Notes under the pieces: model-generated
The model's database searches: none
The model's input: the letters and a program-made list of their open reading frames with translations, nothing else
What the model was told of the DNA's origin: nothing
Made by a program: the position numbers and the translations under genes
NCBI GenBank assembly: GCA_012840395.1
Contig: DULL01000057.1
Span: 1-51,124, forward strand
DNA: 51,124 bases
Direction of reading: 5' to 3'
Source: Clostridiaceae bacterium
Lineage (GTDB): Bacteria; Bacillota; Clostridia; Acetivibrionales; DULL01
Part shown: piece by piece, positions 1,940 through 51,124 of the stretch
How the letters are laid out: the number at the start of each line of letters is the position of its first letter
Numbering within the stretch: position 1 is the stretch's first letter

Positions 1940-2240
1940 AATTAAATAACTGGGTATTTAGTAATGAAGGAGAAAAGATGCATCCAAAGTGTACAAGAGA
2001 GCCGGTGGATGGTGTAAACCGGTACACGGGATTGCATGTATAGCTCACTCCGGAACTCTACCATTGAAAGCTTTAACTTGTTAAGGCAGATAGATGATAG
2101 CGGTGACTACGTTATAGTCGAGTACTGACTGTACTACTGAGAATACACAAGCAATTGTGTGTTTAAGTAGGGTGGTACCACGTAGAGGATCTATTCCCTT
2201 CGTCCCTGCATCATATTCTGCAAGGATGAAGGGTTTTTTA
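1940..2240 (+). promoter_or_regulatory. T-box riboswitch leader of the ilv-leu operon
   Basis: The conserved T-box sequence AGGGTGGTACCACG is at 2169-2182. It is preceded by a Stem I-like region with the GCCGGTGG...AAACCGG pairing near 2001-2022 and followed by a strong terminator at 2196-2239. This tRNA-sensing leader lets the operon be transcribed when its cognate tRNA is uncharged. A candidate specifier codon is CTC (Leu) at 2056-2058 within GAACTC, which fits a leucine-responsive ilv-leu operon; the assignment is tentative because Stem I was not folded. The boundaries are approximate. Confidence 0.88.
2196..2239 (+). terminator. T-box-controlled intrinsic terminator
   Basis: The 5' arm CCCTTCGTCC with CTGCA pairs with TGCA and GGATGAAGGG, followed by TTTTTTA. 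The 5' arm can instead pair with the T-box sequence at 2169-2182 to form the antiterminator, the standard T-box switch. ilvB starts 21 bases further on. Confidence 0.85.
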
Positions 2241-5519: not shown

Positions 5520-5595
5520 TTGGTTTTAACCTAAAAGCTCATTACATGTCAGCATATTGAATTTTGTAACACTTCATCTTACATTTTATGGGCCC

Positions 5596-5646
5596 GTGCT
5601 GATTCAACATCGTGTTTCAACAGCACTTTCTACGCCATCCGTGGCG
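5596..5646. repeat. Two adjacent hairpins in the ilvC-leuA gap
   Basis: The 251-base gap between ilvC and leuA holds a hairpin with arms GTGCTG (5596-5601) and CAGCAC (5621-5626). A GC-rich one follows at once, CGCCA-TCCG-TGGCG (5633-5646). TTTCAAC occurs inside the first and directly after the second. There is no T-run after either, so they are not classical terminators. They may be an intergenic repeat element or an RNA-processing/stability structure separating ilvBNC from leuA-cimA. Confidence 0.45.
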
Positions 5647-5770
5647 TTTCAACCCTTAAAATACTGCGATTTCAGTGACAAATTTTGCAATATGCTTCCA
5701 ATTTCATTCGCTTTTAGATCAAACCTGACTTAATGGAGAAATTTATCTTGTATGGAAGAGGAGGTCTTAT

Positions 5771-45134: not shown

Positions 45135-45608
45135 ATGGCTAAAGAAATAATGGATAGGAGGGCCTCTGACAACAAGTATCTGCACAGGGATTTCCATAAT
45201 TTTATGAACCTTGGTATAAATTATGTGCAGGAACTTTACGGAGAAGAAGGAGTACGGGAGTATCTGAGGGATTTTGCAATGGCTTTCTATGCTCCTTTAA
45301 AAGAAGACATCAAAAAAAGAGGGCTTGCGGCAATAAAAGACCATTATGAAAAAATATATGCAATTGAGGAAGCTTCAAATGATGTAGAATTTACACTTTC
45401 TGAGGATGAATTAATCATAAAAGTAAATAAATGTCCGGCTGTAACACATATAAGAAGCTGCGGAATTGAAATGGCGCCATTATATTATGAAACCTTTAAG
45501 ACCACCAATGAAGTTATTTGTGAAGGAAGCCCATTTGCTTATGAGTTGGTGGAATACGATAAAGATACCGGAAGATCTTTGGAACGTTTTTATAGGAAGG
45601 AGAAATGA
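45135..45608 (+). CDS. Conserved small protein, tandem paralogue 1 (possibly ATC-hydrolase-like)
   Basis: A 157-residue cytoplasmic protein. The N-terminal half is helical (YVQELYGEEGVREYLRDFAMAF). The C-terminal half has a strand ELIIKVNKCPAVTHIRSCG with two cysteines and a His. The layout is reminiscent of the L-2-amino-thiazoline-4-carboxylate hydrolase-like family, but this assignment is from memory and weak. The next gene encodes a clear paralogue three bases later, so they are one operon and may form a heteromer. A strong promoter precedes it. Confidence 0.8.
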   Translation: MAKEIMDRRASDNKYLHRDFHNFMNLGINYVQELYGEEGVREYLRDFAMAFYAPLKEDIKKRGLAAIKDHYEKIYAIEEASNDVEFTLSEDELIIKVNKCPAVTHIRSCGIEMAPLYYETFKTTNEVICEGSPFAYELVEYDKDTGRSLERFYRKEK

Positions 45609-45611
45609 TAT

Positions 45612-46058
45612 ATGATATCATGTACTGAATTTATACCGGCATATAGCGAGCTTTTTAAATTCCTGGAAAAAAAGGGAGGAAAAGAAGCTGTAATTGCTTA
45701 TTGGGAGTACATCGCAAAGAATGGGCTGAATAATTTAAGGGACCTTGTTAAAGAAAATGGTATTCGCGGATGCTTTATGTATTGGTCACATACTTTGAAT
45801 GAAGAAGCTGCCGATTTTACAATGACCCTTGATGAAGAAGAAGGTACTTTTAGAATTGATATGCATTATTGTCCCTCAAAAGGAAGATTGCTGGAGTTTA
45901 AACATATAGAACCATATCGTGATTATTGTGAACATTGTGATTTACTGTATCGGCGTGTTCTTGAGCCTATGGGATACAAGTATGACTATGATATGAGCCA
46001 GGTAGATAAGGCAAAATGCAGCCTTAAAGTTACAAAATTAAATTCTCAGCAGGAATAA
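45612..46058 (+). CDS. Conserved small protein, tandem paralogue 2 (cysteine-rich)
   Basis: 148 residues with the same plan as its neighbour: helical start (AYSELFKFLEKKGGKEAVIAY) and a strand FRIDMHYCPSKGRLLEF aligned with IIKVNKCPAVTHI of paralogue 1. It has extra cysteines and histidines (YRDYCEHCD) that could bind a metal. The start ATG follows GGAGAA and sits three bases after the first stop, so the two are translationally coupled. Function unknown; a terminator follows. Confidence 0.8.
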   Translation: MISCTEFIPAYSELFKFLEKKGGKEAVIAYWEYIAKNGLNNLRDLVKENGIRGCFMYWSHTLNEEAADFTMTLDEEEGTFRIDMHYCPSKGRLLEFKHIEPYRDYCEHCDLLYRRVLEPMGYKYDYDMSQVDKAKCSLKVTKLNSQQE

Positions 46059-46303: not shown

Positions 46304-46392
46304 GCCGGAGTGGCGGAACTGGCAGACGCACAGGACTTAAAATCCTGCGGTCCGTGAGGGCTGTACCGGTTCGAGTCCGGTTTCCGGCACCA
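46304..46392 (+). tRNA. tRNA-Leu (anticodon TAA)
   Basis: An 89-base class II tRNA with CCA encoded. The acceptor stem is GCCGGAG with TTCCGGC. The anticodon stem CAGGA/TCCTG encloses CTTAAAA, anticodon TAA. A long variable arm (CGGTCCGTGAGGGCTG) follows, then a T-arm with GGTTCGAGTCC. It reads UUA codons, which are frequent in this AT-rich genome. Confidence 0.97.
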
Positions 46393-46493: not shown

Positions 46494-46570
<77 letters not shown>

Positions 46571-46619: not shown

Positions 46620-46800
46620 CTACATTATGTCTATATCTGTACGCAGTCTCAGCAAATTTATCATACATTGACAAATAATAACATTAACAATAGAATAAAA
46701 TCGCAGATTTAATATAAACGTGATGGTAAGAAGTTAACAATGGGTTTTTCAATACATGATAATGTTAATTAATTTCTTTTTTATATTAGGAAGAAGCTCT

Positions 46801-46908
46801 ATGGAGAAGAAAATATTATACACGACTTCATTTGAAGATATAATTGAATCAATTTCAAATATCTGTAATTGTAGTGAAACTGAATATGAAGGTTGTAAAG
46901 GAGATTGA
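46801..46908 (+). CDS. Possible 35-aa small ORF overlapping the next gene
   Basis: ATG 46801 with AGGAAG about 9 bases ahead opens a 35-codon frame (MEKKILYTTSFEDIIESI, then CNCSETEYEGCKGD) with three cysteines near its end. It overlaps the 85-aa ORF by 23 bases in another frame, which would allow coupled translation. Unknown family; coding status uncertain. Confidence 0.3.
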   Translation: MEKKILYTTSFEDIIESISNICNCSETEYEGCKGD

Positions 46909-47143
46909 GGAATCTACGGATCCAAATAGCAGGTGGCCTTATATAATAACATTGGAATGGGAAATCGGACCGAAGCAGGGGATAACCTTTGCAGATGCCG
47001 GCCTTGATATTCGTCCAAGGGTAGGGGATACCCTTTATGCTATTACTTATGACAAAGCAAAAGAAATTATTGACCTCTTAAATGACCAACCTGACCTACC
47101 AAAGAGTACTATTGAATTTTTGGCAAACGAGTATAAAGAATAG
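46886..47143 (+). CDS. Small hypothetical protein
   Basis: 85 residues from ATG 46886 (an open frame extends to 46844). It contains tryptophans and a beta-rich look (RWPYIITLEWEIGP, FADAGLDIRPRVGDTLYAI) followed by a helix and acidic end. No recognised domain; no strong ribosome site, but an overlapping small ORF upstream might couple its translation. It is the first gene of the accessory region after the tRNAs. Confidence 0.55.
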   Translation: MKVVKEIEESTDPNSRWPYIITLEWEIGPKQGITFADAGLDIRPRVGDTLYAITYDKAKEIIDLLNDQPDLPKSTIEFLANEYKE

Positions 47144-47167
47144 GTTTGCTGGGAGAAAATTGTATAT

Positions 47168-47248
47168 ATGATATCAAAAGACGTATTAAAAGTATTGAAA
47201 ATAACCAGACCCACACTTACGAAGTATGTAAAAGACGGCATAATTTGA
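47168..47248 (+). pseudogene. IS607-type serine recombinase, N-terminal stub
   Basis: 26 codons, MISKDVLKVLKITRPTLTKY followed by VKDGII and a TGA. This closely resembles the N-terminal MerR-like helix-turn-helix of clostridial IS607-family transposase A (serine recombinases), where the text normally continues into a YDYxE loop and a resolvase domain. Nothing of the catalytic domain follows in any frame. It looks like a remnant of a mobile element. Confidence 0.55.
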
Positions 47249-47267
47249 AATTCCGTATTCAGACTGG

Positions 47268-47441
47268 ATGGACACACCTCATTTTGTGTACAAGCTGAGC
47301 TCTGGGTTTACTCCAAACAAAATAGTCAAGACCGGTACTATTTATAAAAACGGCAGAGTCTGGTGTATGTTGGACACCTTGTTTATCTGCGATACTATTT
47401 CAGAAGCTCGGTATGAAACAAAGAGAAGACTACAACAGTAG
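47268..47441 (+). CDS. 57-aa ORF, unrecognised fragment
   Basis: ATG 47268 to TAG 47441 (MDTPHFVYKLSSGFTPNKIV ... WCMLDTLFICD ... TKRRLQQ). The frame is open a little further upstream without a start. It looks protein-like, with strand and helix patterning, but no family is recognised. It lies directly after the recombinase stub and may itself be a fragment. Confidence 0.3.
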   Translation: MDTPHFVYKLSSGFTPNKIVKTGTIYKNGRVWCMLDTLFICDTISEARYETKRRLQQ

Positions 47442-47560
47442 TTTATACATGCACAGATAGATTTCTGATAACGATGTTAACGAAAGCAATGTAAGGACTA
47501 CGTAATTAATGGTATTTACTTTCTTTATTACATGCATTGTTAAATGAGGGTGATGATTAC

Positions 47561-47823
47561 ATGAGAAATAGTACACAAGTAACGAAGAATCAGCGCTATG
47601 TTCCATGTTGTGTACTTAAGTTTTTAAAGAATCAGATGAAGCCTTTAAGAAAAAGAAAAAGCGGATATTTCATGTAATCCACAAGAAAAATAAGATTTTT
47701 CCATCAACAATAAATGATGTGATGTCAGCTCAATTGTTTTATGAACATGGTAAGCTCCAGAATAATGAAATTGAAAAAAGACTTAAGAAGTTTGAAGCAT
47801 GGTACAATAAAAAACATGGATAA
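47561..47823 (+). pseudogene. Frameshifted small gene of unknown function
   Basis: ATG 47561 with GAGGGTG ahead starts MRNSTQVTKNQRYVPCCVLK. At the T-run near 47621-47625 the frame needs one extra T to continue as FKESDEAFKKKKKRIFHVIH and on to a clean stop at 47821-47823 (ending FEAWYNKKHG). Without the extra base it stops at 47677. Joined, the protein would be about 87 residues. The stop overlaps an ATG (47824) opening a 24-codon ORF (MITLIEEYEAGKVKFSKVRH). Probably a decaying gene; a sequencing indel is the alternative. Confidence 0.4.
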
Positions 47824-47894
47824 ATGATAACATTAATTGAAGAATACGAAGCGGGGAAAGTAAAATTCAGTAAAGTAAGGCACAAGCTTTCAAT

Positions 47895-48737
47895 TTGATT
47901 GAGCCAATGATTAAAATGCATTTAAGAAGTGGCGCAATAATGTATGAACTTAACTATTGGCAAGAAAGAAACCACTCGAATTATAGTTTATTCCGGATGC
48001 TTGACAGGTTATTAAATCATAATTATTCTATTAGATTTGCTAATGCACTTATCAATTTTCATGAATTCTTTATAATAAAAAGTTCTAGTAAAAATTTTAT
48101 AATATCGGATCAATTCATAGCAACAGCTTCACTTTCCTTTAAAGCACATTTTATGAATGCTACAAATCGAACAATTGGGTTAAGAGACGTTATAGTATTT
48201 TTACCTTTGTCAAAGGTATATTACATTTGTTTTTATAACGGAAACAAGCCCACATATATTAAAGAAAATCAGCTTAAGCAATTAACAATTGACCAAACAA
48301 ATGAAGTTAATAGCGTTATAATGAATAATTCATATATGCAAACAGCAGGGCCAACTTATGATACGCTAGATAGAGCTCTACAGAAATTTAAAGATGATGA
48401 ACCTACCGCTATCTATTATGGTGGCGGCAAGGTAAGTGGTGGAGTGGAACGCCGCAAAGAGGTTTTCTATTATGATAGAGATAGGTTAATATATGACTTT
48501 GTGGTATCAGCGTTTGATTATCATCGATTTTTTGGAGTTAAAAAAAGTGAACCTTGTCCATGTGGAAGTGGAAACTCGTTTGGAGAGTGTTGCAGGTTTA
48601 AAGTGAGACAATTTGACAAGTTTTTGGAGAGGGTAAAGCTGCAGAGTGAGAATAAATATTATGACCCTTATGGCATTCCGGATTGTGATTTTCATCAAGA
48701 AAATATAATTGAATATCATACTAGAAACAGAGATTAA
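47895..48737 (+). CDS. SEC-C motif (zinc-binding) protein
   Basis: Up to 280 residues. The C-terminal part contains a SEC-C zinc motif, EPCPCGSGNSFGECC (about residues 220-234), as found at the end of SecA and in many stand-alone proteins of mobile and defence regions. The first 210 residues match no family I recognise; they mix helices (MLDRLLNHNYSIRFANALI) and strands. The start is uncertain: the frame opens with TTG 47895, and ATG 47907, 47916 and 47940 are alternatives, none with a strong ribosome site. Confidence 0.75.
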   Translation: MIEPMIKMHLRSGAIMYELNYWQERNHSNYSLFRMLDRLLNHNYSIRFANALINFHEFFIIKSSSKNFIISDQFIATASLSFKAHFMNATNRTIGLRDVIVFLPLSKVYYICFYNGNKPTYIKENQLKQLTIDQTNEVNSVIMNNSYMQTAGPTYDTLDRALQKFKDDEPTAIYYGGGKVSGGVERRKEVFYYDRDRLIYDFVVSAFDYHRFFGVKKSEPCPCGSGNSFGECCRFKVRQFDKFLERVKLQSENKYYDPYGIPDCDFHQENIIEYHTRNRD

Positions 48738-48776
48738 TTACATTATATTGCAGATAATTTTCATAACAAATTATAA

Positions 48777-48805
48777 TTGACTAATCAGTTACTAATTAGT
48801 ATAGC
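48777..48805 (+). promoter_or_regulatory. Promoter with palindromic operator-like spacer
   Basis: TTGACT at 48777-48782, 17-base spacer, TATAGC at 48800-48805. The spacer contains the palindrome ACTAATTAGT (48791-48800) and a second ACTAAT half at 48780-48785. A repressor bound there would block the promoter. It probably drives the two genes at 48838 and 49132. Confidence 0.5.
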
Positions 48806-48837
48806 ATGAGTATCTTATAAGATGAGGAGGCATTTTC

Positions 48838-49089
48838 ATGGCACAAACAAGAGTTGTGGTATTAAACGAAACTAAAAAAGGGAATCCCGGTGAATGGACA
48901 CTTTGTTTCCAATATTGTCGTTATGAGTATGAAGATGGGACTGAGGAAAATGGTTATAGGTTTATCTGGCAACGGCCGGATGGAACTTTACAAGCAGCAA
49001 GAGGCCAGTCGCGGATACCGTCTATCGCTGATATCCTTTTGTTGGTGAGTGAGGCGATTAAAGGTGGATGGGGAAATCATTGTGAGTAA
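48838..49089 (+). CDS. Small hypothetical protein, partner of the nuclease-like gene
   Basis: 83 residues with a beta-rich, tryptophan-containing core (EWTLCFQYCRYEYEDG, YRFIWQRPDGTLQAARGQ) and a C-terminal helix. It resembles no family I recognise. The start ATG follows GAGGAGG at good spacing. It lies 42 bases ahead of the PD-(D/E)XK-like gene under the same promoter, so an accessory, antidote or specificity role is possible but unproven. Confidence 0.75.
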   Translation: MAQTRVVVLNETKKGNPGEWTLCFQYCRYEYEDGTEENGYRFIWQRPDGTLQAARGQSRIPSIADILLLVSEAIKGGWGNHCE

Positions 49090-49131
49090 CTTTTAAAAGG
49101 TATAGAATAGACGATAGGGGGGTCTGAGGTC

Positions 49132-49827
49132 ATGAAGCTATTGTCTGAAGGTATAATTGAAAAGTATCTTATTAAGTATATAAACAACAAATGGACAAGC
49201 ATGCAACTGGAAGATTTTCAATATCCAGGGAGAAGATTTCCGTTTGTTATTGAAGAAGCAGTTTTAAATACTGCTCTTACCGGAAGCATCTTCCAATATA
49301 TGCATGATAATAACGATTATTCTTCTACATTGGTATCTGAAGCGAAGGTTAAACGGACAGGAGATAGAAACGGTCGATGTGACATCATTTGGTATTCCGG
49401 TGACACAGTACACTATATTGAGCTTAAAAGTGTATTTTTATATGATACAGCTGAAGAAAATCTAAATAAAGCCTTGTATTTTCTTAATGAAGCAGTTGAG
49501 CAAGCATATTCAATTGTTCCAAAGGACATGTTTAAAGATGGCGTGACAGAAAATGAACGTTGGTATGGATACACCCCTAAACACCGATATGGATTTGTGG
49601 GTGGGTTTATATTCTCTGAGATAAATAATAGAGATAAGAGCTTCATCAATTATCAGAAATTACTTAATAATGATAAATTAGTAATCGGAAGCAGCATTAA
49701 ACCAATTGTTTATGAAAACCAGTTTACAGGTGAACCTTTAGACATTTCGTATTACAGGCAAGAAGGCCAAAAAGTAACTATTAAATCAGATGGTTATTTC
49801 TTTATATGTGCAGAGTTTGAAATCTGA
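49132..49827 (+). CDS. Protein with PD-(D/E)XK nuclease-like signature
   Basis: 231 residues. Residues 65-100 read as a restriction-endonuclease-like core: Glu70, Asp84 in GRCDIIWYSG and Glu97-x-Lys99 in HYIELKS. This gives the spacing D-x12-ExK typical of PD-(D/E)XK folds, preceded by a helix with FVIEEAVLNTAL. The rest is alpha/beta with aromatic strands. It might be a defence nuclease, a transposon-linked nuclease or a non-catalytic relative. The start ATG lies after a GGGGGG-type ribosome site. The gene follows a small unknown gene and precedes zinc-ribbon debris. The nuclease call rests only on the motif. Confidence 0.65.
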   Translation: MKLLSEGIIEKYLIKYINNKWTSMQLEDFQYPGRRFPFVIEEAVLNTALTGSIFQYMHDNNDYSSTLVSEAKVKRTGDRNGRCDIIWYSGDTVHYIELKSVFLYDTAEENLNKALYFLNEAVEQAYSIVPKDMFKDGVTENERWYGYTPKHRYGFVGGFIFSEINNRDKSFINYQKLLNNDKLVIGSSIKPIVYENQFTGEPLDISYYRQEGQKVTIKSDGYFFICAEFEI

Positions 49828-49920
49828 GATACAATGGAGAGAAGGTGATTGAATAATTGGGTTGAGAATGTAATTTCATAATTTTTCACACAGACCTTTA
49901 TTCTAATCCATCCATACATT

Positions 49921-50001
49921 TTTTGCATACATTTTTTGCCTTTATATTCTTTTACATCTCTTGCCTCACCACAAAATATGCAACTGGATTATATTTTTTA
50001 G
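49921..50001 (-). pseudogene. Decayed AbrB-type zinc-ribbon tail, copy 1
   Basis: Read on the minus strand with two frameshifts it gives KKYNP, CIFCGEARDVKEYKGK and NVCKKCMDGLE-stop. The CxxC...CxxC pattern is like the C-terminal zinc ribbon of clostridial AbrB/SpoVT-like regulators. The 81 bases align without gaps to copy 2 (50350-50430). It begins 12 bases after the end of the small membrane protein gene. Confidence 0.55.
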
Positions 50002-50012
50002 AACTATATGGA

Positions 50013-50300
50013 TTATTGTTTTTGTCTAAGCAATTTAACACATCCCAATATTACGAACATGAATCCCAGAAGCATAAAAACAACATAGACCACAGGAATT
50101 ATCGGATGACCCCAAGGACCAATATATGAAGTGTCTCTTCCACTTTCTTCAAGCAATTGCCAAAGCAAATACATTGACAAACCAGAGCACACAGATGTAA
50201 AAATTCCAAATATTATACTTATCAAAGGTTTATCTTTCATAGCGATGGCAGAAATACAAAAACATGTGAAAGCAAAAAAAGCGAACATAATAGCTTCCAT
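50013..50300 (-). CDS. Small membrane protein, three predicted helices
   Basis: 95 residues with hydrophobic segments at about 3-21, 26-48 and 66-90 separated by a short GPWGHP loop. The C-terminus is basic (CVKLLRQKQ). No family recognised. AGAGGGAT stands 5-6 bases ahead of the ATG; the stop of the decayed zinc-ribbon copy 2 lies two bases ahead, so the two were once translationally coupled. It is flanked on both sides by the 81-base repeat. Confidence 0.75.
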   Translation of the reverse strand: MEAIMFAFFAFTCFCISAIAMKDKPLISIIFGIFTSVCSGLSMYLLWQLLEESGRDTSYIGPWGHPIIPVVYVVFMLLGFMFVILGCVKLLRQKQ

Positions 50301-50349
50301 AACTATCCCTCTACCACAGTTGATATTTTAGCGGCTTCCTTCATGCAGT

Positions 50350-50430
50350 TTTTGCATACAGTCTTATTCCTATAAGTTCCAACATATCTTGCCTCACCGC
50401 AAAATACTCAACCTGGATAATATTTTTCAG
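50350..50430 (-). pseudogene. Decayed AbrB-type zinc-ribbon tail, copy 2
   Basis: Minus-strand reading EKYYPG-stop-VFCGEARYVGTY followed by RNKTVCKNCMKEA and running to a TAG just before the membrane protein start. A TGA (50410-50408) stands where the first zinc cysteine would be. It is the paired copy of 49921-50001. The DNA-binding part of an AbrB protein is absent upstream. Confidence 0.55.
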
Positions 50431-50526
50431 TATAATGTTATTTCCATCTATAAATATTTATAAAGGGTCATTTATTGCATAAAAAGTCTCTTCTAGTTTC
50501 TAGCAGTGGATTTTTGTCATTTTCGA

Positions 50527-51056: not shown

Positions 51057-51124
51057 ATGGAAAAGAGAAGAAATTTTACACCGGAAGAAAAAGCAAAAAT
51101 AGTGATTGAGGTCTTAAGGGAAGA
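51057..51124 (+). mobile_element. IS3-type transposase OrfA, 5' end (cut by window edge)
   Basis: 22 complete codons, MEKRRNFTPEEKAKIVIEVL followed by RE, the N-terminal helix-turn-helix of IS3/IS911-type OrfA transposases (pattern RRxFTxEEKxxIV). The reading frame is open at the window end. It marks the right side of the accessory region as a mobile-element boundary. Confidence 0.7.

Follow-up and report, generated by a model that had tools for sequence, protein, structure and literature searches.

Three open reading frames lie in a row on one strand of contig C57, which belongs to a draft genome of 2.84 Mb and whose 51,124 bases make up the whole window analysed here; they encode proteins of 280 aa (47895-48737), 83 aa (48838-49089) and 231 aa (49132-49827). 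An earlier note, which had placed these three frames correctly, took them for an undescribed cassette, of which the last two genes would share a repressed promoter. Does this locus hold a three-gene unit, or is the live element a smaller one?

A small family carried as a single gene

The 83-aa protein, encoded at 48838..49089 on the plus strand, matches no family in Pfam, NCBIfam, PHROGs or PADLOC, and its family motif RGQARIP occurs in none of the papers searched. Its relatives (40-78% identity) occur on 6 of the 72,556 plasmid records, in six genera—Sphingomonas, Clostridioides, Acinetobacter, Sulfitobacter, Methylobacterium and Furfurilactobacillus—on 20 IMG/VR viral contigs recovered in three scans, and on one chromosome, that of Sphingomonas gei. 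The 398 sampled genomes of the phylum gave, besides the own genome, one partial match (G456), at which no clear reading frame of the family was found. The family is thus rare yet very wide, being present in Clostridia, Bacilli, Alpha- and Gammaproteobacteria. Its conserved residues include L22, Q25, Y29, G39, R41, F42, W44 and G49 in the first part of the protein, and R55, G56, R59, P61, L69, A73, G77 and W78 further on.

The neighbours of these relatives vary among plasmids, viral contigs and chromosome. In the group of the window copy (L010-L013, L025, L033) the gene is antiparallel to the phage genes on either side; in L017-L019 and L028 it stands among late tail and lysis genes; and the annotated genes of the Furfurilactobacillus plasmid (2,020 bp) are a relative and a replication gene only. 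By reading of the loci, a promoter of TTGAC(A/T) type precedes many copies as their own, several have a terminator-like stem just past the stop, and some (L010, L014, L018) are adjoined by toxin-antitoxin-like pairs. A moron is a phage cargo gene which bears its own promoter and terminator, and the relatives of the 83-aa gene are indeed solo transcription units amid unrelated phage genes. The 83-aa family is an undescribed family of small proteins, which travels as a single gene on phages and plasmids.

The promoter, its array and the predicted fold

A promoter-like site, recognised by resemblance to the consensus only, precedes the 83-aa gene at 48777..48805 (plus strand), with TTGACT at 48777 and TATAGC at 48800 separated by a 17-nt spacer which contains CTAATTAG. 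The palindrome of this spacer had been taken as the mark of a tightly repressed promoter. The palindrome is there and repression is likely, but it is not isolated: we found four 8-bp near-palindromic elements spaced by exactly 11 bp (48781..48821, no strand assigned), namely CTAATCAG at 48781, CTAATTAG at 48792, the degenerate AGCATGAG at 48803 and CTTATAAG at 48814. They are laid out as CTAATCAG-TTA-CTAATTAG-TAT-AGCATGAG-TAT-CTTATAAG and overlap both TTGACT and TATAGC; ACTAATTAGT contains the second of the four. We propose this array as an operator, from its sequence and because the six closest relatives share its type.

The 51-kb window contains the doubled element CTNATNAG-N3-CTNATNAG a single time, where shuffles give an expectation of 0, and in the 69 loci compared it appears immediately upstream of family genes and nowhere else. 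In L010, L011, L013 and L014 no 11-bp array elsewhere in the locus is as strong as the one lying at most 90 nt upstream of the 83-aa relative, and the same is true of the 9-bp array of L019 and of L006, a complete plasmid. Loci of the gammaproteobacterial type (L005, L023, L057, L060) have arrays with a spacing of ~20 bp, with elements such as TTAAGATCTTAA or AACTGTACAGTT, and the sequences of the elements differ from clade to clade. Combined over 20 loci by Fisher's method, the periodicity gives a p of 5e-12, or 1.5e-7 against AT-matched windows, values which overstate independence because these loci are related. By the periodicity score the array of the window itself is a borderline case (AT-matched 0.12), and at least six loci, including L015, L016, L017, L018, L028 and L003, display a weak array or none.

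In a maximum-likelihood tree of the proteins, the seven loci with 11-bp arrays, and no others, make up a clade (96/94), the loci with ~20-bp arrays grouping in another (99/99); the array type, which has three states, requires two changes on this tree, the minimum. That the array type tracks the protein clade points to a repression specific to this gene, probably exerted by its own product, and an array which moves and changes with its gene matches the prediction of autoregulation. Since the gene stands solo, the simplest candidate for a partner that always accompanies the array is moreover the 83-aa protein. We consider it likely, from these sequence comparisons, that the promoter is under gene-specific repression; most likely the 83-aa protein itself binds the iterated elements, a self-repression which we infer from the co-variation of array and protein. 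The palindrome first noticed would then belong to an operator array that is specific to the gene of this undescribed single-gene family.

Could the array rather be the operator of another repressor, from the host or from a phage, the function of the 83-aa protein being unrelated to its own control? The presence of an array is after all a property of the DNA only, and the model of the 83-aa protein shows no recognised DNA-binding domain. However, the array type shifts with the protein clade and arrays are kept across distinct phages and on small plasmids, L006 among them, while the element sequences differ between clades, and we hold control by another repressor to be rather unlikely.

Viral contigs were also scanned with the tripled element, which retrieved in addition 24 contigs lacking the 83-aa gene, mostly plain 11-bp tandem repeats; the motif alone is thus not diagnostic. 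Used as a key to other target genes, the operator led mostly to such plain repeats in unrelated phages, and this use was discarded. In the unrelated viral contigs L070-L093, the CTNATNAG-N3 tandem arrays at 11 bp lie nearly all outside long ORFs; in L070, L074, L078, L080 and L093 the N positions vary and the palindrome is kept, like in real operators.

The structure prediction that had been advised for the 83-aa protein gave a confident model but no significant match to a known structure. AlphaFold2, with 15 family members (mean pLDDT 86.9, pTM 0.75), predicts strands at 5-14, 21-30, 36-45 and 51-53 and a helix at 63-75, i.e. a beta-beta-beta-beta-alpha order devoid of helix-turn-helix. Foldseek found nothing significant, either in the PDB—the best matches, to RAD52 chains, are at E 0.08, with a TM of ~0.33 and an rmsd of ~10—or among viral models, and the model has no significant match to a known DNA-binding or anti-CRISPR protein. 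Should the 83-aa protein bind its array, it would represent a kind of compact repressor not recognised so far.

The predicted order of elements is also that of PC4-like proteins, a group which includes AcrIIA22 of clostridial prophages (PMC8545432); no PC4 structure figures among the best 50 Foldseek matches, all at E >= 0.08. With RAD52 chains among the top Foldseek matches, it might suggest a small helper of phages and plasmids, PC4-like or RAD52-like, acting in single-stranded DNA binding or recombination. This function appears decidedly improbable: the Foldseek E, TM and rmsd values argue against it; hhalign gives a probability of 0.1% between the family and the clostridial PC4/YdbC profile; PF02229 matches none of 16 family members; and the family profile retrieves no chain among PDB sequences at E<=10. 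As homology to PC4/YdbC is supported neither by hhalign nor by the PF02229 and PDB profile searches, we keep a possible PC4-like kinship as a lead only.

The neighbouring genes and the decayed island

The 231-aa gene (49132..49827, plus strand) begins 42 nt after the 83-aa gene. No terminator was found between the two, 49087-49140 folding no better than shuffles; with so short a gap the 231-aa gene probably shares the 83-aa promoter and is probably co-transcribed from it, as the earlier note had proposed. The nuclease-like E...D-x12-ExK core claimed for its product is present too, as D84-x12-E97-L-K99, with E41/E42. The core of PD-(D/E)XK proteins is ordered alpha-beta-beta-beta-alpha-beta, with the D on beta2 and the ExK on beta3. 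A single-sequence model of the 231-aa protein (H42-59, E68-75, E82-89 with D84, E92-104 with E97 and K99, H107-128, E153-160) gives, at low confidence, this same order through residue 160, with D84 on the second strand and E97/K99 on the third. The order of elements is compatible with a PD-(D/E)XK fold, but the pLDDT is 45 and Foldseek found no match, an uninformative result because the model is poor. The NERD profile of PADLOC matches residues 71-177 weakly (E 8.7e-4), no Pfam family passes its cut-off, and neither NCBIfam nor the PDB gives a match. We regard this orphan as a probable PD-(D/E)XK-like protein, which may cut DNA.

Relatives of the 231-aa protein were found neither in plasmids, in phages and in the genomes sampled from its class and phylum, nor by exact-peptide scans of viral contigs and of a species-genome collection. 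The next gene of pCd1_2 (229 aa) is unrelated, and the match in G661 arises by chance, in a glycogen-branching-enzyme-like ORF. When viral contigs were searched with a degenerate pattern of the nuclease core, three matches came up; one of them, L064, has a similar D...ExK core without clear homology overall.

The 83-aa and 231-aa genes might nevertheless make a two-gene unit, where a small autoregulator, resembling the controller protein of a restriction system, or an inhibitor would accompany a PD-(D/E)XK nuclease, both being expressed from a single repressed promoter. Such a unit would fit the common strand, the uninterrupted 42-nt gap, the single promoter with its operator array and the nuclease-like core, and in L016 a fragment of cytosine methyltransferase (5281 onward) directly follows the 83-aa relative. 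On the other hand, the frame of this methyltransferase is broken after ~89 codons, the 83-aa relatives are usually solo, and a relative of the 231-aa protein lies near 0 of the 33 family loci, and searches of phage, plasmid and sampled-genome sequences returned none either; a functional pair is, in our opinion, clearly unlikely.

The first ORF (47895..48737, plus strand) had been read as a SEC-C zinc protein. The SEC-C motif is real (PF02810, residues 219-233 of the 280-aa ORF, 22.7 bits for a cut-off of 20.4), but the ORF is not a whole gene: its TTG start is situated within a DUF4238 gene, whose 5' pieces occupy 47561-47895 and are read in two further frames, which rules out an entire zinc protein. 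The 5' piece (MRNSTQVTKNQRYVPCCVLKF..., 47561..47677, plus strand) is ended by a frameshift and a stop, and the second piece (ESDEAFKKKKKRIFHVIHKKNK..., 47629..47895, plus strand), in another frame, has an internal stop at 47821-47823. The 3' part alone matches PF14022 with 30.1 bits (profile 174-272), and the first 64 residues of the second piece alone match positions 12-71 (E 1.6e-4). Joined with an X at each break, the pieces reach 39.6 bits, for a curated cut-off of 27, over 4-272 of the 281 profile positions; membership of DUF4238 is therefore established across most of the profile. An intact DUF4238 frame is absent, as 47561-47900 needs three frames and contains stops. Gene 1 is thus the pseudogene of an already described type of gene, and the sole DUF4238 match in the host genome; its weak profile matches to E2 are limited to the C-terminal SEC-C region. 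Because another DUF4238 protein, encoded in a hotspot of P2 phages, is a single-gene defence which protects against T7 (Rousset et al. 2022, PMC9122126), gene 1 was probably a defence gene and is now dead.

A new three-gene defence cassette, which the adjoining of the genes, the tested anti-phage protein of DUF4238 (PMC9122126) and the nuclease-like third protein could evoke, is extremely improbable, gene 1 being broken by frameshifts and a stop and tblastn over 33 loci that bear the family (288,693 bases, with some overlap) detecting gene 2 in 33/33 but neither gene 1 nor gene 3 in any. The lack of a conserved neighbourhood in other genomes had been set beforehand as refuting the proposal; it is what these 33 loci display, and the cassette as a conserved unit is refuted.

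The locus lies 3' of a tRNA-Leu (46304-46392) and a tRNA-Met (46494-46570), among decayed genes (~46800-47143, 47150-47480) and with a transposase ORF at the contig end; the mobile debris described around the three genes is thus borne out. At 46800-47143 a gene has a 5' frameshift, with MEKKILYTTSFEDIIESISNICNC in one frame and the next frame carrying on as a 99-aa TTG ORF, and 47150-47480 consists of short gene remnants. The transposase ORF (MEKRRNFTPEEKAKIVIEVLRE, 51059-51124, a weak HTH_Tnp_1 match) is cut just after its start by the contig end at 51124, which is probably a break at a repeated insertion sequence. On the minus strand a short zinc-ribbon-like piece is present twice in decayed form, as FCGEARYVGTYRNKTVCKNCMKEA and as a diverged copy (49900-50030 and 50290-50440), with small membrane-protein ORFs nearby. 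Elsewhere in the window, two tandem proteins at 45135-46058 have a weak likeness to ATC_hydrolase (PF14196), under the curated cut-off, and a TwoAYGGAY RNA motif (5545-5702, minus strand) and a T-box leader (1955-2210, plus strand) are over the Rfam cut-offs.

Possible role and comparison with known systems

Taken as a whole, we find it somewhat probable that the 83-aa gene is an autorepressed single-gene cargo of phages and plasmids, perhaps anti-defence, left in a decayed island. The live element would be the 83-aa gene together with the promoter and operator array that precede it, brought by a phage or plasmid as a moron with a self-regulated promoter. The carrier would then have decayed, leaving this copy stranded 3' of tRNA-Met, after the dead DUF4238 gene. 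No terminator is found 3' of the gene in the window, unlike in several relatives: the cargo terminator may have been lost, and an unrelated PD-(D/E)XK-like gene captured downstream, which would now be under the 83-aa promoter. On entry into a naive cell the gene would be highly expressed, until its accumulating product, by binding the iterated elements across its own promoter, shuts it down.

A burst of expression at entry is typical of anti-defence genes. As this burst-then-repress logic is theirs, the role that we favour for the 83-aa protein is that of an anti-defence or host-takeover protein which would also be its own repressor; an anti-defence function, suggested by the solo, mobile and burst-then-repress anatomy of the gene, is nonetheless a tentative proposal. 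If it were correct, repressor and anti-defence roles would be united in one gene. That the whole family forms a new, broad-host-range class of single-gene anti-defence proteins, self-repressing through a fold other than helix-turn-helix, with an array co-evolving in each clade, is a bolder extension and an unlikely one. The host has a CRISPR-cas operon, with Cas1 confirmed, on contig C59 (L068 9451-17245 and 17674-20000, running into L069), which we take to be type I-B-like from its gene order and the families of its genes. Its array comprises 54 repeats and 53 spacers, and these spacers have only short chance matches, none convincing, to the window and the fetched phage loci.

Gene 1 resembles the DUF4238 defence of the P2 hotspot (PMC9122126) in covering PF14022 4-272 of 281, once its pieces are joined with X; it differs by its SEC-C motif and its breakage, and the tested protein is another DUF4238 member. 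With the PD-(D/E)XK superfamily, which includes NERD, the 231-aa protein shares the D-x12-E-x-K motif and the predicted order of elements, but it passes no Pfam cut-off and its model has a pLDDT of 45.

AcrIIA22, a 54-aa PC4-like nickase found in clostridial prophages and in hypervariable islands (PMC8545432), is like the 83-aa protein small, sheet-rich and prophage-borne, in an island with unconserved neighbours—in the window for the 83-aa gene. The 83-aa family differs by its C-terminal helix, its promoter array and its reach into Pseudomonadota, and the AcrIIA22 structure 7JTA is not among the best 50 Foldseek matches of the 83-aa model. At the level of control, the closest parallels are AcrIF24, an autoregulated anti-CRISPR (PMC9638941), and the Aca repressors (PMC9410906). 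The 83-aa family departs from both by a model without helix-turn-helix and by having no partner gene; what it has in common with them is to be phage cargo, with a promoter that would be repressed by its own or a partner product.
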